NCBI GenBank assembly: GCA_028289065.1
Contig: JAQGHA010000003.1
Span: 1-58,886 of the forward strand
Origin: Candidatus Saccharimonadota bacterium
GTDB taxonomy: Bacteria; Patescibacteriota; Saccharimonadia; Saccharimonadales; Saccharimonadaceae
Length of the DNA: 58,886 bases
Direction: 5' to 3'
The translations under genes and the position numbers were made by a program. Shown piece by piece: positions 3,453-56,891 of this stretch. A model generated the notes under the pieces. The model searched no databases. It was not told where the DNA came from and saw only the letters and a list, made by a program, of their open reading frames with translations. Numbering within the stretch: the first letter of the stretch is position 1; each line of letters opens with the position of its first letter.

Positions 3453-5894
3453 ATGACTGTGTGGTTCCACCTACCCACTACTTTAAACCTGCCCTTAGAT
3501 AGGCGACTCGCTTTGCGCGTTTCGTGTATTCTATTGCTATGTATTGCGTTAATTACAACGTTATTTTTGAATGCAGTATCATACGCGGCTCCAGGGGTGA
3601 ATCAAACCATTGGCTTCCAAGGCCGTCTTCTCGACTCTAACGGTGACATCGTTCACGATGGCTACTACAACATTCAATTCAAGGTGTACCAAGGTGGTAG
3701 TGGTGAAGCCGCCAATAACCCCGACGGTACCTTGAAATGGACCGAAACCTACATCAACAACGGCAATGCAACCGGTGCTGTTGAAGTGAAAAACGGTTTT
3801 ATGTCGGTCAACCTTGGGTCACTCAACCCATTCGGCAATAGTATCGACTGGAACCAGGACACCTTGTGGCTTTCTATGAATATTGCCGGGGCTGCCACTG
3901 GCTGTACAACTTTCGGAAGTGGCGCCTGTGTAGCCGATGGCGAAATGTTGCCAATGAAGCGAATGACCGCAACTCCTTACGCTTTAAACGCTGGAGCTGT
4001 AAACGGTAAAACAGCCGATAACTTCATCCAACTCGCTCAAGGCGTACAAACCGATGCGAGTACTAACACTAGCAGCATTTTCATCAACAAAACCAGCACC
4101 GGCAACCTTATCCAACTTCAAAACACCGCCACTGATGTATTTACCGTTAACAATGACGGTGATTTGAAGTTTGGTAATAACGCCGACCACAGCCTATCAG
4201 TCGCAACATCCGACGCCGACACCGATGGTCGTGAACTCGCCATCAACGCCGGAGCTGGTGGAAGTGGCAGCGGCAGTAATGGTGGCGGATTGAGCCTACA
4301 GGGTGGTGCGGCCGGTGGTACTAATGGCGATGGTGGCAATATTGAAATCAACGCTGGCGCCAAAACTGGCACTGGAGCTGACGGAACTATCTCCATCGGA
4401 ACCGCTAACGGAAGTGCAATTACTATCGGTAGCACTTCTGCAGCATTGAACCAAAACATTAGCATCGGTACCAACAATACCGTTGGTAGTACCTCAAACG
4501 TTACTATTGGTGCTGGTGAATCAGCCAACAGCGGTGCAACTATCGTTCAAGCCAAAGATTCAGTCACTATTAAAACCGATGGTATTACCCGTGCAACTTT
4601 CTCTGACAGCTCAAATACTGTCTACTTTGGTAACGGCGTCTCCGCATCAGCACCAAATGACTTTACGCTTCAAGGTACAAACAGCTCAGCCACTGGTGTA
4701 GCCGGTGGTTCGCTCAGCCTTCAGGGTGGCCAAGCGACAACCGGTGACGCGAACGGTGGCAATATTACGCTAGGCGGTGGTGCCGGTAGCGGTACTGGCG
4801 CGAGTGGGTTAGTAGTACTTAATACTCCTACTTTCTCAACTGTCTCCAACGACGCTAACTGTTACACCAGTGGCGCGGTCGTCGCTAATAGCTGTACCAT
4901 TACCACTTCAAGCATCAATAACTCCGCGGCGGTTATTGTGGGCTTCAGCGCTACCGGTAAAATTGCTACCCTGCCCGACCCAACTATTACGACCGCCGGC
5001 CGAATAATCTACGTTACCGCCGCTAACGGATCAAAAGACTTTACACTGGCTATGAATGGCGGTGGCAATGGAAACCAAACAACCATGCGCCAAAACACAA
5101 CAACTACCATTCTTTGGAACGGTTCAGACTGGACTATCGCCGGTGCTTCAAACTACGGTGTTAATACAACCGATGATATCGAAAATGTCCAAATCGGTAG
5201 TGGCAGCGATGACAGCACTACTACCCTTTTGACCGTTGATAAAGCAGCCTCAGCTCCAACCGTTACCGATGAAGCACTGCTTGGTAGCATGTACTACGAC
5301 ACCACTGTCGGTAAATTGCAATGCTATGAAGCCGATGGCTGGGGAGCATGTAGCTCAAGCCCAGACAGCTTTGTAACATTAAGCCCAGAATATGCCAATG
5401 CCGTAAAGAACGGTAATGGTATTGGAACCATGAGTTCGGACCTTTGTTCTGACACGCTTAATATTAATGACGGTAGCGATGAACAACCGACCGTTTGTGG
5501 AACTAACGAAACTTACAACTTCTACAGCTGGACCTCTGCTGAGCTAGCTGATCAAAAGCGCAGTATTTATGTAACCTATCAACTACCAAGCAACTTCAAG
5601 GAATTTGTTTCAGGCTCAACTTCACTTATGGGACGAACCGACAACGCAAACTCAACCGTTAATTACCAGGTATACAAGAATACCGGCAGCGGCTTGGCTG
5701 CTTGTGGCGCAGCTGTCGCTGTATCAACCGGGGCACAAACTACTTGGCAAAAAGCCGTCGCTACTAGCACCGCTGACCCTTCTACTTGTGGTTTTGCGGC
5801 TGGCGATAGTGTCGTATTCAGAATCAATCTTACAGCCAGCGTGGATGCCAATGCCTACGCCAGTAACCTTAACTTCGCATTCAGCAACCTTTAG
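3453..5894 (+). CDS. Large secreted beta-rich surface protein
   Basis: 813 residues, Sec-type N-terminus: basic start, hydrophobic segment at about 24-46, then SYAAPGVNQ. Residues about 50-180 contain a globular region (IGFQGRLLDSNGD, then PYALNAGAVNG) seen in phage-tail-like and surface fibre proteins of these bacteria. The middle is Gly/Asn/Thr-rich with repeated NGGG, GGN and ISIGT steps, consistent with a beta-solenoid stalk. A later module (ATLPDPTITTAGR through GSDWTIAGA) resembles the terminal modules of the GH81 proteins at 22606-28575. The end shows no membrane anchor or LPxTG. Base use is richer in G and C than in neighbouring genes. The partner or ligand is unknown. Confidence 0.7.
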   Translation: MTVWFHLPTTLNLPLDRRLALRVSCILLLCIALITTLFLNAVSYAAPGVNQTIGFQGRLLDSNGDIVHDGYYNIQFKVYQGGSGEAANNPDGTLKWTETYINNGNATGAVEVKNGFMSVNLGSLNPFGNSIDWNQDTLWLSMNIAGAATGCTTFGSGACVADGEMLPMKRMTATPYALNAGAVNGKTADNFIQLAQGVQTDASTNTSSIFINKTSTGNLIQLQNTATDVFTVNNDGDLKFGNNADHSLSVATSDADTDGRELAINAGAGGSGSGSNGGGLSLQGGAAGGTNGDGGNIEINAGAKTGTGADGTISIGTANGSAITIGSTSAALNQNISIGTNNTVGSTSNVTIGAGESANSGATIVQAKDSVTIKTDGITRATFSDSSNTVYFGNGVSASAPNDFTLQGTNSSATGVAGGSLSLQGGQATTGDANGGNITLGGGAGSGTGASGLVVLNTPTFSTVSNDANCYTSGAVVANSCTITTSSINNSAAVIVGFSATGKIATLPDPTITTAGRIIYVTAANGSKDFTLAMNGGGNGNQTTMRQNTTTTILWNGSDWTIAGASNYGVNTTDDIENVQIGSGSDDSTTTLLTVDKAASAPTVTDEALLGSMYYDTTVGKLQCYEADGWGACSSSPDSFVTLSPEYANAVKNGNGIGTMSSDLCSDTLNINDGSDEQPTVCGTNETYNFYSWTSAELADQKRSIYVTYQLPSNFKEFVSGSTSLMGRTDNANSTVNYQVYKNTGSGLAACGAAVAVSTGAQTTWQKAVATSTADPSTCGFAAGDSVVFRINLTASVDANAYASNLNFAFSNL

Positions 5895-22195: not shown

Positions 22196-22606
22196 ATGGG
22201 ATTTTCACCCGGCGGTTCAGGAAGCATTGCTACCAGTAGCGACGTAAGCTTTAGTAATTTAGCAAGCGGACAAGTGCTAACGTATGACACAACTACCCAA
22301 AAATGGAAAAATGTCGCTGCATCAGCCGGCCTTTTGGCATCTAAAGACACGGCTGCTTCCGGCAATAGCACTTTTACTGCCGGCTCAACTGCCAATTTAA
22401 CAAAGTTCACCGGAACGTTATCGGCCGATAGGGTGATTACGCTAGCGGCGGCGGCAGCCAACTCGTATTTCGACCTGTCATTTATCGATACAGTCTTTAA
22501 TGGTTTCAGCGTGACTATTTCTAATGGTACCTTTAGCCATTCCTTTAGCTATCCAACTTTCATTAAGTATGTAAACATAGCCGGTACCTGGGAGCGAGTT
22601 CTTTAA
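22196..22606 (+). CDS. Short tail-fibre-like protein
   Basis: 136 residues without a signal peptide. The N-terminus (GFSPGGSGSIATSSDVSFSNLASGQVLTYD is the pattern, then TTQKWKN) resembles phage tail-fibre and receptor-binding proteins. The C-terminal half (LTKFTGTLSADRVITL to AGTWERVL) is a version of the terminal module of the two following GH81 proteins. AGGAG lies 8 bases before the ATG. Its TAA overlaps the ATG of the next gene (TAATG), so translation is coupled. It may be a fibre subunit or chaperone-like partner of the enzymes. Confidence 0.65.
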   Translation: MGFSPGGSGSIATSSDVSFSNLASGQVLTYDTTTQKWKNVAASAGLLASKDTAASGNSTFTAGSTANLTKFTGTLSADRVITLAAAAANSYFDLSFIDTVFNGFSVTISNGTFSHSFSYPTFIKYVNIAGTWERVL

Positions 22607-25600
22607 TGGCTTTTAGTGACCCAATTTCTACCTCGGCACCGGTCTATGATAATAGAACTAACTCAATTACAACCCCAGCCGCTAGTAGTTGGTGGGGGCC
22701 GGCTATTTCTGCACCCTACCCTACAAATGCCTGGTTTATGGACTACGTCATTGAGCCTAATGCGGATTTATTGCAATCAAAAAGTGATCGCCGTTTATCT
22801 GTTAACCCGTATAACTTACGCGTAAATACTGCCGGTATTGATACTAACAAACCATTCATACGGACTTACACTGATAACCGCACCATTCGTAACGAACACC
22901 AAATTAACTACGACGCGTCAGCTGAAAATTATGGCTGGAAAGGCGACCAATACCCACAAATCTGGCGTTACCTTGACCTTACGCTTCGTTCAACCGAAAC
23001 TACCGTTTCGCGTTACCTTAAATCGTTTGATCAGTTATCGGCAACGTTCCGCTGGAACGTCGATGGCTCGCACTATATGGAAGCTCCCATTGTGCGCGGG
23101 ATGCCGTATGTAACAATGCGCTATACCGCTATGACCCCTGTTATTGAAACGGCCAACACCGACTATCATGCAATCGTCAGCGTCAATGGAAGTAGCCCAA
23201 GTGGTACATTTACCGGAACAAAGTTTAAATTGGTAGTAAACCGTCCTTACCTAGGTGCTGGTGCCACAGAAACCTGGATTGTCTACGCCCAGTCTTCTAT
23301 CACCTTCACAGCAACATCGCTTAATCTAATTGCAACCGGGCAATACACTGGCTACATTCGTCTCGCGGTCATTGCCAATGGTAGCGGCAGTGAAACAATG
23401 CTGGATACATATAAGGATGCCGTGCCAATTGGCGGAACGACTGCGGTTACAGTGAGTGGCGGGAATGTTCAAACAACCACTTTTTCTTATACAAAAGTAG
23501 GTACTGGTTCAAACCTTATAACGTATGCCCTGCCTCACCATGAAGCAATATTAACTTCACCGACATACGTCCCTAACCACAGCTTCCCTACAATCCGTGG
23601 CACCTTGCACGCTGTTATTGGTAATATCTGGACACTTTCCGATACGCTTAGTACCATAACTTGGAATTCGCCTAACGCCATTGATGGTGGTAGGTTATCT
23701 GGCATAACTTCAGCCTTGGCGACTGAAAAAACTTTTGCCGCCAGCAACCTAGATGCCACTGAAGCTTATACATTTGGTAAGCAAATATCCCGCGCAGCCC
23801 GCTTAGCGCTGATTGCTGATCAAGTTGGTGATACGACAGCACGCGACAGTATTATTGCTTCAATGAAAACGTATCTAAACCCGTGGTTTAACCGCAGCGC
23901 CAATGCCAATACAACCCTCAGTTTGGCCTATGACACCACATGGGGTGGTATCGTTTCGATGAATGCTTTGGTCACGTCGCCTCCCGGTAACCCTAACCAA
24001 GCCACTGAATTTGGCAATGCCATTTATAACGACCATTATTTTCACTGGGGATATTATATATACGCTGCTGCGGTAATTGCCCACTTTGATGCCGCATGGG
24101 GCACAACCTACCGAGCCAAGGTTAATGACATCATTCGTGACATTGCCAACCCGTCAGTGTCGGGCGACCCCTACTTTACCCAGCTTCGACATTACGACTG
24201 GTACGAAGGTCACTCTTGGGCAGCCGGTTTGCAATCAAATGGTGACGGCCGTAACCAGGAATCTACCTCTGAAGCAATGCATGCGTGGTACGGGATAAAC
24301 TTGTGGGGCCTCGCTACTAGCCAGCCCGACCTGCGAAATGTTGGTCGGTTCTTACAAGCCGCCGAAGTGCGTTCTGCTAAAACATATTGGCAAATGCCAA
24401 GCTATAACAGCGTATACCCATCGGGCTTTGCCGCTCAAAAAATGGTTGCTCTTATATTTATGAACAAGGCGTTTAACGGCACTTGGTTTGGGCTTGGTGA
24501 TGACCAAATTGTAGGTATTGAAACCATGCCATTTACGCCGGCTACCCACGAATTACTAACGAGTTCCTACGTAGCGGAAATGTATCCTGTCCGTTTGCAG
24601 CCAAAAGAAACGACCTCTACAGCCACTACCCCGGGTGGTTGGCTTGGTAATACCTTGGCTACAAAGGCAATTATTAACCCTGACGCAGCTTATACGGCTC
24701 TCTCGAGTACGCCTTTGGGTGACCCTGAATACATTGATAAGCAAGGTGCATCAAAAACAAATTTCCTATGGTGGACGGCCGTTCAAAATGTCAGTACCTC
24801 AGAGGCAATATCCACCACTACCGGTTTGTCCGTGTCACCTGCCTCTACGGCCGCATCCGGTGCTACCGTTACCATGACGGCCACAATCTCGCCGTCTGCT
24901 GCTGGTACCGTCTATTTTTACGATGACACTACTTTATTGGGTAGCACGGTTGTATCAGGTACGACCGCCAGTTTATCTATAACCACACTAGCATCGGGCA
25001 CTCGATCATTGAGCGCGACCTTTAGTCCTACCGATACGGACACCTATAGTGGCTCGACCTCAAGCAACGTTTCGTACACCATCACCGGCGGTTCGTCGGC
25101 GATAACAACTTCTACCAGCCTGAGTGCCTCACCGGTAAGTTCAACAACCGCTGGCAACAATGTAACATTCACCGCTACAGTGTCGCCCTCAAATGCTGTG
25201 GGTACGGTCACATTTAAGGATGGTGCCTCTACCATCGGGACTGGTACTGTCAGTGGTGGGGTGGCAACCTACGCAACCAGCGCACTTTCTACTGCAGCTC
25301 ACACTATAAGCGCTGTCTTTAACCCTACGGTTCCAGCTAACTTCACGGCATCAACCTCGGCAAACCTGACGTATACCATTACGGCTGCTGGCGGCGGTTC
25401 GAATAATTCTAACGCCAATGACGTTCCTTACATGGCCTTCGTCAGCGGGCAACCAAATACCGCCGTCCGTATAGGTATAACCGATAGTAACTACACTATT
25501 GCTGCTCAAGATACGATTATTGCCTACACAACACTTACCGTTACTCGCACCGTAACATTGCCAAGTGCTGCCGGTAATGTTGGCCGCAGCATTGTTATTA

Positions 25601-25746
25601 AAGACGAATCTGGAAACTGTAATAGCGGTCGACAGATTGTTATTTCTGGCCTGATTGATAACTCCGCCAGTAACGTCATAACAACCGCTTTTGGAAGTAT
25701 CCGGTTATATAGCGGCGGCAACGGCTGGTATAAAATATCATCCTAA
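22606..25746 (+). CDS. GH81 endo-beta-1,3-glucanase with Ig-like repeats, no signal peptide
   Basis: 1046 residues. The N-terminal GH81 part (about 1-740) shows NDHYFHWGYYIYAAAV with Asp476 and NQESTSEAMHAWYG with Glu552 and Glu556, the conserved acidic residues of GH81, 76 residues apart. It would hydrolyse beta-1,3-glucan (laminarin, callose, fungal walls). Two bacterial Ig-like repeats follow (about 745-930; SxSPxSTTAGNNVTFTATV pattern), then a terminal module (about 945-1046) with ARTVTLPSA-like and VIKDESGNC segments shared with the next gene. The start MAFSDPIST has no Sec or Tat signal. Export route unknown. Confidence 0.9.
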   Translation: MAFSDPISTSAPVYDNRTNSITTPAASSWWGPAISAPYPTNAWFMDYVIEPNADLLQSKSDRRLSVNPYNLRVNTAGIDTNKPFIRTYTDNRTIRNEHQINYDASAENYGWKGDQYPQIWRYLDLTLRSTETTVSRYLKSFDQLSATFRWNVDGSHYMEAPIVRGMPYVTMRYTAMTPVIETANTDYHAIVSVNGSSPSGTFTGTKFKLVVNRPYLGAGATETWIVYAQSSITFTATSLNLIATGQYTGYIRLAVIANGSGSETMLDTYKDAVPIGGTTAVTVSGGNVQTTTFSYTKVGTGSNLITYALPHHEAILTSPTYVPNHSFPTIRGTLHAVIGNIWTLSDTLSTITWNSPNAIDGGRLSGITSALATEKTFAASNLDATEAYTFGKQISRAARLALIADQVGDTTARDSIIASMKTYLNPWFNRSANANTTLSLAYDTTWGGIVSMNALVTSPPGNPNQATEFGNAIYNDHYFHWGYYIYAAAVIAHFDAAWGTTYRAKVNDIIRDIANPSVSGDPYFTQLRHYDWYEGHSWAAGLQSNGDGRNQESTSEAMHAWYGINLWGLATSQPDLRNVGRFLQAAEVRSAKTYWQMPSYNSVYPSGFAAQKMVALIFMNKAFNGTWFGLGDDQIVGIETMPFTPATHELLTSSYVAEMYPVRLQPKETTSTATTPGGWLGNTLATKAIINPDAAYTALSSTPLGDPEYIDKQGASKTNFLWWTAVQNVSTSEAISTTTGLSVSPASTAASGATVTMTATISPSAAGTVYFYDDTTLLGSTVVSGTTASLSITTLASGTRSLSATFSPTDTDTYSGSTSSNVSYTITGGSSAITTSTSLSASPVSSTTAGNNVTFTATVSPSNAVGTVTFKDGASTIGTGTVSGGVATYATSALSTAAHTISAVFNPTVPANFTASTSANLTYTITAAGGGSNNSNANDVPYMAFVSGQPNTAVRIGITDSNYTIAAQDTIIAYTTLTVTRTVTLPSAAGNVGRSIVIKDESGNCNSGRQIVISGLIDNSASNVITTAFGSIRLYSGGNGWYKISS

Positions 25747-25767
25747 TACTAAGAACGGAATTACTTA

Positions 25768-28575
25768 ATGGCTTTTACTGACCCCATCGCAACTACCGCC
25801 CCTCCGTTCAATGTTCGGACGGCTCCTCACTTACTGACACCAAGTAGTTATTTTACCTACATAGGGTCAAAACTATTACCTACAAATATATGGTGGCAAA
25901 ACCTTATCATTCCTCATTATGATTCAAGTAATTATAACGGTAAAACAGCCACCTTTCCTTATTCACAGTGGCCATCAGCCAATGGCAAAGGATATACAGT
26001 AAGCTATTTTGGAACTCAAACAGGTGAACGCGATGTAGCTAATAATGCCATTACTTTGTCGGGTGCTAAGGATATCAGCCTTGAAATTAACGAGGCCATT
26101 ACCACTCGGCAAATAACCGACTATACCGACCTTGGGGTTAATTTACGCTTCAATGCCTCGGCTGGCAATATGGTGGTTAATTTTGTTCAAGGCCAAGGCT
26201 TTAATTCGGCCATCTACACCGGAGTCACACCGGTAATCCGATTCGATAATGCCATCCTTACCATTAATGGCGGCGACCCGTCGTCGGCCAATTTAACTGG
26301 TGTTACGAAACTAAAAGTTAAAACTAATCGCTTTAACCGCACCTGGCTAATTTATATGACATCTGCCGTTTCCTTCACGCTGAGTGGTGGCGTATTAACA
26401 GCAACCTCAGCCTTTACGGGAACTATTCAAACAGCTGTTCTAGAAACCGAAACTGATTCAGCGGCCGAAGCTGTTTACGATGCCGCCCGAACCAGCGTCT
26501 TAACCGGAGGCTCTGTTAGTTCAACTTTTAGTGGTAACACAGCAACTATGACATTTACCTTTGCCTCAACCGGATCCGGTGCTCCACTAGTATTTGCCCT
26601 ACCGCATCACCAGGATTTAATGACAGGTGCTACCTATGTAGCCGCATCACTGGCTTCTATTAAAGGGCCGATGGCCGGTATCCGGGCTTCAAGTTGGACA
26701 TTGAACGAAACCCTTAGCACTATATCGTGGCGCTCACCAAATACTATACCTACCTCAGCCTATGCCGATATCCAGGCAGCCTTAGCAATTGAAAAAAATA
26801 GCACGTATGACTATGTTGGAAATGGCTATGGCTGGAGCCCTTATTACGGCGGTAAGTACATAGCTAAAATGGCCCGCTTGATTATCATTGCCGAAGAGGT
26901 AGGAGATACTGCTACGGCTACCCAAATAGCATCGAACCTAAAAACGCTTGTTTCTTCGTATTTAAATGCCACTCCGGTTGGTTCAAAGGGAACGAATGGT
27001 TCTGGATACGTGAACGCCTTGCAATATCAAGGTGGGTCAACCTGGAAAGGTGTCAGCACCCAAAATGGCCTCGAAGATATGGGTGCCGATTTCGGTAGTG
27101 GCCGCTTCAATGACCATCATTTCCACTACGGCTACTGGATTTACGCCGCTGCCGTACTAGCCCGTAACGACGCAACTTGGCGCGCTAACAATAAGGCTGC
27201 TATTGAATCATTGATTCGAGATATTGCTAACCCTTCACATACCGACACATATTTCCCTAAGTTTAGGCATAAAGATTGGTTCGCTGGCCATTCGTATGCC
27301 AGTGGATTAGTTGGTTTGGATGTTGGGCCTGGGCAAGAATCTACATCAGAAGCAATTAATGCCTGGTACGGCGTTCACCTTTGGGGGTTAGCTACCAGTA
27401 ATACCGATATATCTAATTTGGGGCGATTATTGCTGGCCAGCGAAGTTCGGTCCGCTAAGCGCTACTGGCACATTTACGATAACAGCGATATTTATCCGGC
27501 TCCATTTAACACCCATGGTACGGCAGTCATCCTGCGTACTCATAAGGTAGCCGTCGAAACGTATTTTGGGTCAAAACCACACTACTTTTATGGCATTCAG
27601 TCCTTACCTTTTACGCCAGCTTCCGAATTGTATATCGATCAACCTTGGGTACAACGTTCATACGCCATGGCTTCGACACAAATTCCCGCTACCCAAACCA
27701 GTAACCCGCAGGATACCGCTTGGGATAGCGTGATTTACTCGTTCCATGCCGTTATTGACCCTACGGCTGGCTATAACGAAGCGCAAAGTTTAACTTTAGA
27801 GCAAATTCCAGAATATAGCACTAGTGTTCAATACGGGCGCAACATTGATAACGGTCACAGTAAATCTAATGCTCTTGCTTGGGCTTCAACTCGTACAGCT
27901 TCGGACGGTGGCTCGGCCACAGCAACGTCAACGAGCCTGACGATTAGCCCTTCGTCATCGGCTGCGAGTGGTGCTAGTGTAACGTTAAGTGCAACTATAT
28001 CACCTTCAGCCGCTACTGGTTCAGTTGCCTTCAAAGATGGTGCCACCACAATCGGTACGGTTACAACTTCTGGCGGAACTGCCTCACTATCTACATCAGT
28101 GCTGACTACCGGAACTCATTCGCTTAGTGCTGTATTCACATCTTCAAACTCAGTAACCTATACAAGTTCATCCTCAGCAACTGCGAGTTATGAAATTACC
28201 AGTAGTACGCCAGGTGCGGGTGGCTCAACTGGTAGCAACAAAAACGCCGTTGCGTATAAACCATTCAGCTCCGGTCAACCATTGGTAGCGATTCGAGCGG
28301 CTGTTGCTAATGTCAATTACACTGCGTTACCAACTGATTCGATTATTGCCTACACTTCAATTACAGCGGCACGAACACTAACACTACCTGCGCTTTCCAG
28401 TGTGACTGCCGGTTGGGAAATAATAATAAAAGATGAATCCGGTAATTGTTCTGCCGGTTCGCCGATAATTGTATCCGGTCAAATAGATGGTGCGTCAGGA
28501 AAGACGTTAAATACTTCATATGCTCGGCTCGTACTCTATGCCGGCACTACTTCTTGGTATACGGTTGCCGGTTAA
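25768..28575 (+). CDS. GH81 endo-beta-1,3-glucanase with Ig-like domain, no signal peptide
   Basis: 935 residues, a diverged tandem paralogue of the preceding enzyme. NDHHFHYGYWIYAAAVLA has Asp449 and GQESTSEAINAWYG has Glu524 and Glu528. One Ig-like repeat (about 715-810) is present instead of two, followed by the shared terminal module (IIIKDESGNCSAG). It begins MAFTDPIAT, again without a signal peptide, 21 bases after the first enzyme, so the three genes form an operon. The N-terminal residues 1-20 match the first enzyme closely, suggesting a conserved function for that short start, perhaps docking. Confidence 0.9.
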   Translation: MAFTDPIATTAPPFNVRTAPHLLTPSSYFTYIGSKLLPTNIWWQNLIIPHYDSSNYNGKTATFPYSQWPSANGKGYTVSYFGTQTGERDVANNAITLSGAKDISLEINEAITTRQITDYTDLGVNLRFNASAGNMVVNFVQGQGFNSAIYTGVTPVIRFDNAILTINGGDPSSANLTGVTKLKVKTNRFNRTWLIYMTSAVSFTLSGGVLTATSAFTGTIQTAVLETETDSAAEAVYDAARTSVLTGGSVSSTFSGNTATMTFTFASTGSGAPLVFALPHHQDLMTGATYVAASLASIKGPMAGIRASSWTLNETLSTISWRSPNTIPTSAYADIQAALAIEKNSTYDYVGNGYGWSPYYGGKYIAKMARLIIIAEEVGDTATATQIASNLKTLVSSYLNATPVGSKGTNGSGYVNALQYQGGSTWKGVSTQNGLEDMGADFGSGRFNDHHFHYGYWIYAAAVLARNDATWRANNKAAIESLIRDIANPSHTDTYFPKFRHKDWFAGHSYASGLVGLDVGPGQESTSEAINAWYGVHLWGLATSNTDISNLGRLLLASEVRSAKRYWHIYDNSDIYPAPFNTHGTAVILRTHKVAVETYFGSKPHYFYGIQSLPFTPASELYIDQPWVQRSYAMASTQIPATQTSNPQDTAWDSVIYSFHAVIDPTAGYNEAQSLTLEQIPEYSTSVQYGRNIDNGHSKSNALAWASTRTASDGGSATATSTSLTISPSSSAASGASVTLSATISPSAATGSVAFKDGATTIGTVTTSGGTASLSTSVLTTGTHSLSAVFTSSNSVTYTSSSSATASYEITSSTPGAGGSTGSNKNAVAYKPFSSGQPLVAIRAAVANVNYTALPTDSIIAYTSITAARTLTLPALSSVTAGWEIIIKDESGNCSAGSPIIVSGQIDGASGKTLNTSYARLVLYAGTTSWYTVAG

Positions 28576-51778: not shown

Positions 51779-52870
51779 ATGAGTAAGGTACCTGCTGGTC
51801 AACACTTAAAAGAACTGAGAACCCGATTCTTCATCGTGGCGATCTTTTTCATTATTGGCGCTAGTTTAGCGTATGCTTTTCAGGGGCCGGTTATTGAGGC
51901 GGTATTGGCACCGTTACATGGCCAAAAGCTGGTCTATCTTAACCCGGCCGGCGGTTTCAGCTTTATCTTTATGGTATCTATTTATTCAGGGGTAGCTATA
52001 GCTTTCCCGCTGCTTATTCAGCAACTGTATGCCTTTGTTCGACCGGCTCTGCCTGAAACGGCTCAACAGAAATCATCAATGCTCATCATTGGTTCATTCT
52101 TGTTACTTATTGCTGGTATGGCCTTTGGTTACTTTGTGGCTGTACCGAACGCACTGGTCTTCTTGTATAGTTTCGCCGATAAATTCATCGATGCTTCACT
52201 AACTGCGGATTCTTACTTGAACTTCGTTATCGCCTACACCATCGGTATTGGTATCGTCTTCCAAATCCCGTTGCTTTTGTTGCTCATCAACTCAATTAAG
52301 CCATTCACTCCAGGTGGTTTAATGAAATCTGAAAAGTGGGTAATTGTCATTAGCTTTATCGTCGCCGCTATTATTACCCCAACACCCGACCCTATCAACC
52401 AAACTATTATTGCTGGGCCGGTCGTGGTGGTATATCAAATTGGTGTCATTATTATTCTCGCCTCGATTTTTAAAAAGTACCGGGTTGAAAAGAAGCTTCG
52501 TAAAAAAGAGCTGCGCGTACAACGGCTCAGTAAAAAACGCGGTATGGTAGCGGTTCCAGCATCAGATCCAGAGGTTTATCATGCACCTACACCACTCCCA
52601 ACACCTCATCAAGCTCCTCGTCCAGCTTTTAAACCTGCTCCTCAATTTGCAGACATCAAGCCACAACCGAAGCCAGTTCAATTAATGCAGCCAACCCGTC
52701 CACGTTCGATGGATGGTTTTGTTCGCCCAACTCATCACCAAGTAGTCGTACCTAAAAGGGTTCAGCCACAGCCAGCTGCTCGAGCATTACCTCGGCCAGC
52801 ATCGCCTAATCAACGGAACTTTACAATCGACGGTATGTACCGTCCGTTCCAATCACAAACTATTCAATAG
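51779..52870 (+). CDS. tatC: Twin-arginine translocase subunit TatC
   Basis: 363 residues. The TatC core (about 1-235) has six predicted helices with HLKELRTRF at the start, FSFIFMVSIYSGVAIAFPLLIQQLYAFVRPALPE and AIITPTPDPINQTII. It binds twin-arginine signals and inserts folded proteins. The C-terminal 110 residues are a Pro/Gln-rich cytoplasmic tail not found in ordinary TatC. No convincing Shine-Dalgarno precedes the ATG; a CTCCCTA/TAGGGAG inverted repeat lies at 51721-51749. TatA is encoded at 53795. Confidence 0.92.
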   Translation: MSKVPAGQHLKELRTRFFIVAIFFIIGASLAYAFQGPVIEAVLAPLHGQKLVYLNPAGGFSFIFMVSIYSGVAIAFPLLIQQLYAFVRPALPETAQQKSSMLIIGSFLLLIAGMAFGYFVAVPNALVFLYSFADKFIDASLTADSYLNFVIAYTIGIGIVFQIPLLLLLINSIKPFTPGGLMKSEKWVIVISFIVAAIITPTPDPINQTIIAGPVVVVYQIGVIIILASIFKKYRVEKKLRKKELRVQRLSKKRGMVAVPASDPEVYHAPTPLPTPHQAPRPAFKPAPQFADIKPQPKPVQLMQPTRPRSMDGFVRPTHHQVVVPKRVQPQPAARALPRPASPNQRNFTIDGMYRPFQSQTIQ

Positions 52871-53088: not shown

Positions 53089-53352
53089 CTACTTAGCTGC
53101 CTTTGGTTGTTTCACTTTCCGAATGATAGCGTAAACAATGACAGTTATTACTAATGCAGCAGTAATGAAGATACCGCCCATAAATACTGGGTTAGATGAT
53201 ACTAAGAAACCAGTGTTTGGCGCACCCGGTATACCGGCTAGACAGATAGCATCAGTGGATGCACAACTGTATGTACCCGAGCCATAAGCATCAGAGCCGT
53301 AGGCGGTTGGAGCTTGAGCAATGTATTTGTATGTATATTGATTTTGGAACAA
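53089..53352 (-). CDS. Small surface-anchored protein with APNTG motif
   Basis: 87 residues from a TTG start with AAAGGA 9 bases upstream. The N-terminus (YTYKYIAQAPTAYGSDAYGSGTYSC) has YG repeats and two Cys; APNTG at 44-48 is followed by a membrane helix (about 58-78) and RKVKQPK, the layout of a sortase signal, though Ala replaces Leu. There is no N-terminal signal peptide, so its topology is unclear. The YG pattern also occurs in the Tat substrate at 53509. Confidence 0.55.
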   Translation of the reverse strand: MFQNQYTYKYIAQAPTAYGSDAYGSGTYSCASTDAICLAGIPGAPNTGFLVSSNPVFMGGIFITAALVITVIVYAIIRKVKQPKAAK

Positions 53353-53508: not shown

Positions 53509-53715
53509 ATGATCAAGCAAAGCATCGCTCGCATTCTGTCGGTAGAATTAGACCGTAAAGATTTCTTAAAAGCAGTTGGTATTGGCCTCGTAGCTGCTAC
53601 TGGTGTTTCACAAGCTATCAACAGTGTTGTTAAGCAAACATCATCTACACCACAACGATCTGTAAACTTCGGTTACGGTGACTCAGTGTATGGTGGTCGT
53701 CCTTCAAACCGTTAA
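53509..53715 (+). CDS. Tiny predicted Tat substrate
   Basis: 68 residues. ELDRKDFLKAVGIGLVAATGVSQ has a twin-arginine-like RKxFLK motif and a hydrophobic stretch; the mature part is only about 30-35 residues (PQRSVNFGYGDSVYGGRPSNR). It lies between tatC and tatA, in the same direction. Arg-Lys in place of Arg-Arg is known in some Tat signals. Why a folded-protein exporter would serve so small a product is unclear; it may be co-exported with another protein, or be membrane anchored. Confidence 0.6.
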   Translation: MIKQSIARILSVELDRKDFLKAVGIGLVAATGVSQAINSVVKQTSSTPQRSVNFGYGDSVYGGRPSNR

Positions 53716-53794: not shown

Positions 53795-53983
53795 ATGTTC
53801 GGATTAGGCGCACCAGAACTCATTATCATTCTTATTGTTATTCTAGTTATCTTCGGTGGTTCACAACTTCCAAAGCTAGCCCGAAACATTGGTTCATCTG
53901 CGAAAGAACTTCGCAATGGTCTAAAGGATGATTCTAAGGACAAGAAAACAAACGTCAACGTTAATGACGACACTAAAGTTTAG
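53795..53983 (+). CDS. tatA: Twin-arginine translocase subunit TatA
   Basis: 62 residues. One membrane helix (PELIIILIVILVIFG), FGGSQLPKLARNIGSSAKELRNG, the typical hinge and amphipathic helix, and a short charged tail. It forms the pore ring recruited by TatC. AGGGAG lies upstream of its ATG. Confidence 0.93.
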   Translation: MFGLGAPELIIILIVILVIFGGSQLPKLARNIGSSAKELRNGLKDDSKDKKTNVNVNDDTKV

Positions 53984-55767: not shown

Positions 55768-56214
55768 CTAGCGCTTAATCAGTTCGCCTAGTTCAGTTCG
55801 AGTCGCTATATAAGCAGCTTCAAAGCCAAGTACCTTTAACGAACCAACTAAAACATATATCTCATCCAAAACGCCAGGGTCAGCTGATTGCTTGTAGCTT
55901 TCAAACCGTTCGCGAACCGCTCCAACCAACCACTTCTCTTTGCTGGCATCTTTAGAATTCACCACCGTATTATTCGGACCAGCGCCGTTACCGTATTGGG
56001 CGGAAACTACTTCTAATGAGCGGGCTGAATTATCTCGTTTTCGGATGTAGCCTTTATCAATCAAACCATTAATATGAATGGCTACCGTTGAAACGGATTT
56101 ATACCCAAGGGCGCTCATAACTTCCCGGTAACTTGGGCCATAACCGTGCTCTTTAATAAAACCGTCAACGTAATCAAGTAATTCTTTTTGGCGTTTAGTG
56201 GAACGCTCGGTCAT
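55768..56214 (-). CDS. LexA DNA-binding-domain protein lacking the peptidase domain
   Basis: 148 residues. Residues about 1-70 (RQKELLDYVDGFIKEHGYGPSYREVMSALGYKSVSTVAIHINGLIDKGYI) match the LexA winged helix closely. The C-terminal half (KEKWLVGAVRERFESYKQSADPGVLDEIYVLVGSLK) is helical and has none of the S24 peptidase features (Ser/Lys dyad, Ala-Gly cleavage site). It would not be cleaved by RecA as LexA is. Its ATG overlaps the sortase stop, so the two genes are coupled. Confidence 0.85.
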   Translation of the reverse strand: MTERSTKRQKELLDYVDGFIKEHGYGPSYREVMSALGYKSVSTVAIHINGLIDKGYIRKRDNSARSLEVVSAQYGNGAGPNNTVVNSKDASKEKWLVGAVRERFESYKQSADPGVLDEIYVLVGSLKVLGFEAAYIATRTELGELIKR

Positions 56215-56891
56215 TACGAAACCCTCTCGGCATACACGATTGCCCGCTTATCATAGGTCTTTTCGTTTGGTAGCCAGGTACCCGTGCAAGTCATGAGGTT
56301 TAAACCCTCATCAACATCACCATACGTATGGAGCACCTTGTACATATCAACTGATTCTTTTGGCAAGGTTTCAACGTGCACCACTTTATAGTTAAACAAC
56401 TGGCCGTCGCCTCGTTCAAGGCTAATGGTCGTGCCATTTTTGAGCGTATCAATATAGGCAAATAATCCCTTACGAGTGGCGCCACTGGCGTGTCCATCAA
56501 TAAATACCGCGCCAGGGGTTCCTGGCTTAGAACTACCGCTATACCAACCGCCGTCATAAATATTCACCGGCGCCTGAATGGCACCAACTGAATTAATAGC
56601 CATCGGCCGAACTTTAGCGTTTAAACTCAGCGAATCAATTCGTAGCACTCGCGGCTCGTCGGCAGGCACCGTATAGGTTTTAATCGCTTCAACCGGCACG
56701 GCCGTTTCATCCGAGCCTTCTTTAACCACATCAGCGTTACTCGAACCTTCCCCTGAAGCTATCGGTTGGGTCACAGCTGACTTATGTGCAAATATACCGT
56801 AGGCCAAAAACCCAATACCAAGGCAGGCGAGTATGCCGACGATAAGAATGAAAGAAGGGATGCGCTGAATTTGTTTATTTTGTATTTTCAT
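56214..56891 (-). CDS. Sortase
   Basis: 225 residues. Membrane helix about 12-34, Ser/Glu-rich linker, then a sortase barrel with His134 (FIDGHASG), Cys202 (LMTCTGTW) and Arg216 (DKRAIVYAERV). Third sortase of the window. It overlaps the O-antigen ligase gene by 17 bases upstream and the LexA-like gene by 1 base downstream, so three functions are produced as one unit. Confidence 0.88.
   Translation of the reverse strand: MKIQNKQIQRIPSFILIVGILACLGIGFLAYGIFAHKSAVTQPIASGEGSSNADVVKEGSDETAVPVEAIKTYTVPADEPRVLRIDSLSLNAKVRPMAINSVGAIQAPVNIYDGGWYSGSSKPGTPGAVFIDGHASGATRKGLFAYIDTLKNGTTISLERGDGQLFNYKVVHVETLPKESVDMYKVLHTYGDVDEGLNLMTCTGTWLPNEKTYDKRAIVYAERVS

Follow-up and report, generated by a model that had tools for sequence, protein, structure and literature searches.

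A three-gene operon of a Saccharibacterium appears to encode captured phage depolymerases. The bacterium would have kept them as glycan-cutting fibres, displayed on its surface or secreted, and would most plausibly export them in folded form by the Tat system on a mini-protein; we give this reading a probability of roughly one half. The window, the whole stretch of 58,886 nucleotides that was analysed, is a single contig (C14) of a 933 kb, 98% complete genome of Candidatus Saccharimonadota, whose source is a tiny, probably host-dependent Saccharibacterium. This assignment follows from the third GH81 of the genome, which groups with Saccharibacterial sequences, and from a GH81 of the genus-mate G014 that had the same score, within one search, as the GH81 of Candidatus Saccharibacteria UBA6040. 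The operon lies on the + strand at 22196–28575 and consists of a fibre-like gene followed by two intact GH81 genes. In the proposed sequence of events, a phage tail-spike (virion depolymerase) cassette would have been captured and then kept by the Saccharibacterium. Gene 1 would serve as a fibre-like adaptor, and GH81-A and GH81-B as beta-1,3-glucan depolymerases, each with a C-terminal module of the tailspike type; their Ig-like spacers seem to resemble those found in wall enzymes of the bacterium itself. Like phage tail proteins, the operon products would fold in the cytoplasm, exit through Tat as signal-less passengers of a Tat-signal-like protein of ~70 aa and, once outside the cell, bind and cut beta-1,3-glucan of the host, a neighbour or necromass.

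The three open reading frames are as originally claimed: gene 1 (136 aa) at 22196–22606, GH81-A (1,046 aa) at 22606–25746 and GH81-B (935 aa) at 25768–28575. A TAATG overlap joins genes 1 and 2, and the gap between genes 2 and 3 is 21 bp. Promoter and terminator scans performed no better than on shuffles. The operon is flanked by a 128-aa gene on one side and by a TPM-domain/LemA pair on the other; this pair is kept in G005 with a different neighbour, and no empty insertion site could be demonstrated. The operon is not located among virion genes, its neighbours being TPM, LemA, PBP and histidine kinase genes, and the statement that no other phage gene lies nearby holds for phage head, packaging and sheath genes.

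By sequence, both enzymes are members of the GH81 family, as had been proposed. The N-domain (E=1e-29 in GH81-A and 2e-38 in GH81-B) and the C-domain (7e-86 and 5e-78) exceed the Pfam cut-off in each, and 4k35 is the best solved relative of both. The acidic residues D476, E552 and E556 of GH81-A and D449, E524 and E528 of GH81-B, presumably catalytic from what is generally known of the family, are in register with 4k35, and their spacing is as near-identical as reported (76 and 75 residues, respectively). Beta-1,3-glucanase activity is predicted for both proteins. The Ig-like repeats were recovered as Big_3_5 domains, two following the catalytic domains of GH81-A (24817–25395, +) and one in GH81-B (27913–28203, +), with approximate limits. 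Saccharibacterial PBPs (L100–L105 and L107) carry a similar Big_3_5-like Ig domain at their C terminus; since the phage GH81 proteins described below have no such repeats, this suggests that they were acquired in the bacterium. Proteins of relatives matched through Ig-like domains only were rejected as fibres, most of them being PBP C-termini.

The view that a glucanase is unexpected in a host-dependent organism is contradicted by three observations: the genome has a third GH81 of the membrane-anchored type (L004), the catalytic domain was matched in 13 other genomes among 200 relatives, nearly all of the anchored type, and beta-1,3-glucan hydrolysis has been predicted for a published soil Saccharibacterium genome (PMC6031116). 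Among 199 relatives, none was found to carry the tandem signal-less pair. Secreted or membrane-anchored bacterial GH81 enzymes (L004; BH0236, PDB 4k35) have the catalytic domains and acidic residues in common with the operon enzymes. However, the bacterial copies checked (L004, L005 and the anchored Saccharibacterial ones) start with a signal or an anchor and have no fibre modules, and most bacterial enzymes fall in other branches of the tree.

The absence of Sec and Tat signals was confirmed for all three proteins, which have neither a hydrophobic N-terminal stretch nor an R-[RK]-x-F-[LI] motif. Re-annotation of upstream starts, which might have revealed a signal, gave none; stops close the upstream frame within 13 (GH81-A), 5 (GH81-B) and 0 (gene 1) codons, and therefore no signal has been overlooked. 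By contrast, the third GH81 of the genome (C1:7507–8706) has an N-terminal membrane anchor. Elsewhere in the window, an 813-aa secreted fibre-like protein (3453–5894, +) has an evident Sec-type start and no Pfam match.

Both enzymes end in a tail-spike-like module (25405–25743 in GH81-A and 28231–28569 in GH81-B, both +), with 43% identity between the two copies. The likeness to phage tail proteins pointed out earlier is found in sequence as well as in predicted fold. The module matches the Pam5 tail spike. For the model of the GH81-B copy (mean pLDDT 70, a moderate confidence that is better for residues 30–122), the structural matches are phage tailspikes and T4 gp10/gp9 among PDB entries and numerous tail proteins of phages in BFVD; a tailspike/T4-gp10-type fold is predicted. 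The module was found in 30 of 200 genomes. Phage tail spikes and depolymerases (CBA120 TSP4, Pam5 and the GDPD minor tail proteins of Microbacterium phages) are likewise signal-less and combine the same fibre fold with a glycan- or teichoate-cutting domain, as the operon proteins do. The operon differs in belonging to a bacterial genome, here without virion genes.

The closest GTDB match to GH81-B is a myxobacterial lipoprotein with 36% identity, while IMG/VR contains a full-length phage relative with 55% identity in the best segment and 53% overall (global alignment). The contig concerned, IMGVR_UViG_3300009978_000030, carries two adjacent GH81 genes in its tail region and encodes a major head protein, a portal-like protein, a neck protein, a tape measure, Dit and a holin. 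Nearly all relatives of its capsid belong to phages that infect Actinobacteria, among them Mycobacterium, Gordonia and Microbacterium, and the contig is that of an actinophage-like virus. The phage pair resembles the operon in consisting of two adjacent signal-less GH81 proteins with an N-terminal [FW]xDP[IF]xTSAP motif and the C-terminal module, the 53% identity being that of the B copies. It differs in its location in a tail/lysis region, in having no Ig-like repeats and in a GC3 of 0.92. The same virus carries a TrwC relaxase (L117:36–1028). The GH16 domain of a 1,595-aa protein of its tail region (L115:62–4846, −) is borderline, exceeding the Pfam cut-off by little, and the protein may therefore be a third beta-glucanase of this actinophage.

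A wider search yielded two further viral contigs with GH81; the second viral contig has the order terminase (TerL), major head protein, fibre-like gene, GH81 and fibre-like gene. A tree built from 63 GH81 domains unites GH81-A, GH81-B, four viral sequences from three IMG/VR contigs and a Labilithrix enzyme in a group at 100%. The third GH81 of the genome groups with the anchored Saccharibacterial ones, outside the viral clade. The phage link that had been suspected is upheld by this tree and by homologues encoded within the tail gene clusters of phages, and a phage origin of the operon is well supported by such comparisons. The Labilithrix protein in the viral clade is a secreted enzyme, so the genes may have passed from phage to bacterium or the other way. 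GH81-A alone gave no match among the viral contigs. Apart from the C-terminal module, annotated phage records contained no match to the GH81 proteins, and GH81 as a phage tail enzyme was absent from these records, from PHROGs and from the literature searched. In a plasmid collection, the matches were ordinary distant GH81 sequences only.

Gene 1 begins with a module (22196–22321) of the pattern M-x-[FY]...SDV...VLxYD...KWxN. Its reported resemblance to a tail fibre is echoed by weak PHROG tail matches; a weak PF04984 match (E=0.014) was rejected as chance. As a whole protein it had no match in phage records or viral contigs, and the confidence of its predicted structure (mean pLDDT 42) was too low for use. 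In phage tail proteins the module is mostly internal. In its own genome it opens six loci, the window operon and five others, one of them decayed; six were also found in G037, a genome of another genus. The five consist of a 396-aa protein encoded within the ribosomal/secY region; a first gene that has decayed (TAA, frameshift), followed by genes of 372 and 331 aa; a tail-fibre-repeat protein of 378 aa with a 751-aa GDPD protein; a 98-aa gene with an 858-aa gene; and a lone 149-aa gene. A seventh fibre, of 619 aa (C6:68060–69919), is located between rpsG and fusA and has a start that differs from the gene 1 module. At least seven fibre loci, six with this N-terminal module, are scattered in the genome. 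Fibre genes occur on the opposite strand within ribosomal-protein gene clusters at L149:6662–7849 (−) and L275:8061–9920 (−). The 751-aa GDPD protein has its nearest likeness among Microbacterium phage proteins, in phosphodiesterase and minor tail proteins, and a cassette partner in G037 is a GH6 with Streptomyces phage relatives. Codon use of the cassettes matches the genome, as does GC3 (0.39–0.45, as opposed to 0.92 in the phage); the cassettes are therefore either long resident or derived from phages adapted to the host. A mis-binned contig was ruled out by this host-like codon use and by sister cassettes on four other contigs.

The suggestion of an unrecognised export route has gained a concrete candidate, a route other than plain Sec, in a Tat locus that lies within the window and is linked to fibres in relatives. 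TatC is encoded at 51779–52870 (+; PF00902, E=8e-52) and TatA at 53795–53983 (+; PF02416, E=3e-14), and these would form the export machinery. At 53509–53715 (+) is the gene for a 68-aa mini Tat-signal-like protein, a candidate carrier or anchor, with the sequence LDRKDFLK, a hydrophobic stretch and FGYGDSVYGG. Members of its family are ~60–85 aa long and combine R-[KR]-x-F-L and a hydrophobic stretch with a tail that ends in [FY]Gx...[FY]G; they were detected in 16 fetched loci and in 0 shuffled controls. The motif is mostly R-K, as in this genome, not R-R. In relatives, homologues are often encoded immediately ahead of fibre genes, and at several loci the end of the mini-protein gene is a few bases at most from a fibre gene of ~235 aa. 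A role as Tat substrate or fibre binder is putative.

Other small proteins accompany these loci. An 87-aa protein of the window (53089–53352, −) has YGxxxYG motifs and an NTG, a membrane helix and a basic tail resembling a sortase signal; similar small proteins are found at other tat loci (L289, L291 and L295), and a sortase gene lies in the window at 56214–56891. Secreted proteins in fibre/tat clusters (L277, L278, L286 and L292) have in common a P[FY]GxGx[FY] motif similar to the mini-protein tail.

TatC was found in 65 of 200 genomes: 24 of the 30 fibre-positive genomes versus 41 of the 170 others (Fisher p=8e-9, uncorrected for phylogeny), an association that could partly stem from shared ecology or ancestry. 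Six fibre-positive genomes had no TatC match. In 7 genomes the fibre module and TatC lie no more than 4 kb apart, a count uncorrected for phylogeny and with a limit chosen after the data were seen. The mini-protein is near TatC in 11 of 13 loci read, 7 of which had been selected for fibre proximity. In G063 a single cluster combines tatC and the mini-protein with a fibre and a member of the gene 1 family, which ties the fibre family of the window to the Tat-linked one. The window operon itself is 23 kb from the tat locus and has no mini-protein beside it.

Folded proteins are the cargo of the Tat system. Passengers lacking a signal of their own are an established part of Tat export in E. coli (PMC4273604), where HybOC and PaoABC are likewise folded proteins leaving with a partner that bears the Tat signal. 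Tat genes have been published for Saccharimonadia (PMC9166423), and the soil Saccharibacterium genome has few predicted Tat substrates under strict motifs (PMC6031116). In comparison with the E. coli hitchhikers, the candidate carrier here is of ~70 aa and mostly R-K; TatA and TatC are encoded in the window, and the partner adjoins fibre genes in relatives, not the operon. Tat piggy-back export and display are inferred, as is the target, a glucan that may come from the host, a neighbour, a fungus or necromass. If the 100-kDa enzymes form trimers, they would make a very large Tat cargo, which counts against export by this route.

Release solely by lysis or damage during host contact, with a phage-derived glucanase cassette retained and no dedicated export, is a possible but rather unlikely alternative. 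Lysis is the normal exit of phage tail proteins, and the phage origin of the operon, the missing signals and the missing adjoining mini-protein all fit it. Yet such release would rarely benefit the producer, and a small genome maintains at least six cassettes, with large intact reading frames and host-like codons; the link between fibres and Tat in relatives is also hard to reconcile with it.

It is more doubtful that the genes supply tail-fibre parts to a phage, prophage or tailocin/eCIS that is encoded elsewhere or infects the cell, the scattered genes being a fibre library. The fibre-like modules and actinophage relatives would suit this explanation, and the common N-terminal module could serve docking. 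The contractile or phage-derived particle that had been envisaged elsewhere in the genome was not found, however: searches of the 98%-complete genome for sheath (PF04984), TerL (phrog_2) and tape measure (PF10145, one tape-measure family) all came back empty, although single-family profiles leave room for a divergent particle. Moreover, the cassettes occur singly amid ribosomal and other housekeeping genes.

We regard a recent, non-functional remnant of phage DNA carrying passenger genes as improbable. One sister cassette has decayed and no counterpart of the GH81 pair was found in the 199 relatives, but both long reading frames are intact with their catalytic residues, and codon use and GC3 are those of the genome, not of the phage. 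Finally, cytoplasmic enzymes working on stored beta-1,3-glucan would agree with the missing signals and are scarcely credible given the Ig-like and tail-spike modules, phage homologues that would work outside cells and a neighbourhood in which nothing hints at such a store.

Captured depolymerases leaving by Tat remain our preferred reading. It could be extended to a Saccharibacterial surface-display system: Tat would export signal-less captured phage fibres and depolymerases in folded form, using a dedicated carrier of ~70 aa whose tail is [FY]Gx...[FY]G, and these proteins would then serve the cell as they serve phages, binding and opening the actinobacterial host envelope. This extension is put forward as a speculative proposal that we consider unlikely as it stands. 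The findings bear on how epibiotic Saccharibacteria attach to their actinobacterial hosts and act on them, and on which of their proteins leave the cell. If epibionts carry the actinophage parts that bind receptors and act as depolymerases, their fibre genes may reveal their host range, and the Tat carrier, if true, would be an export route for a class of proteins overlooked by signal predictors.
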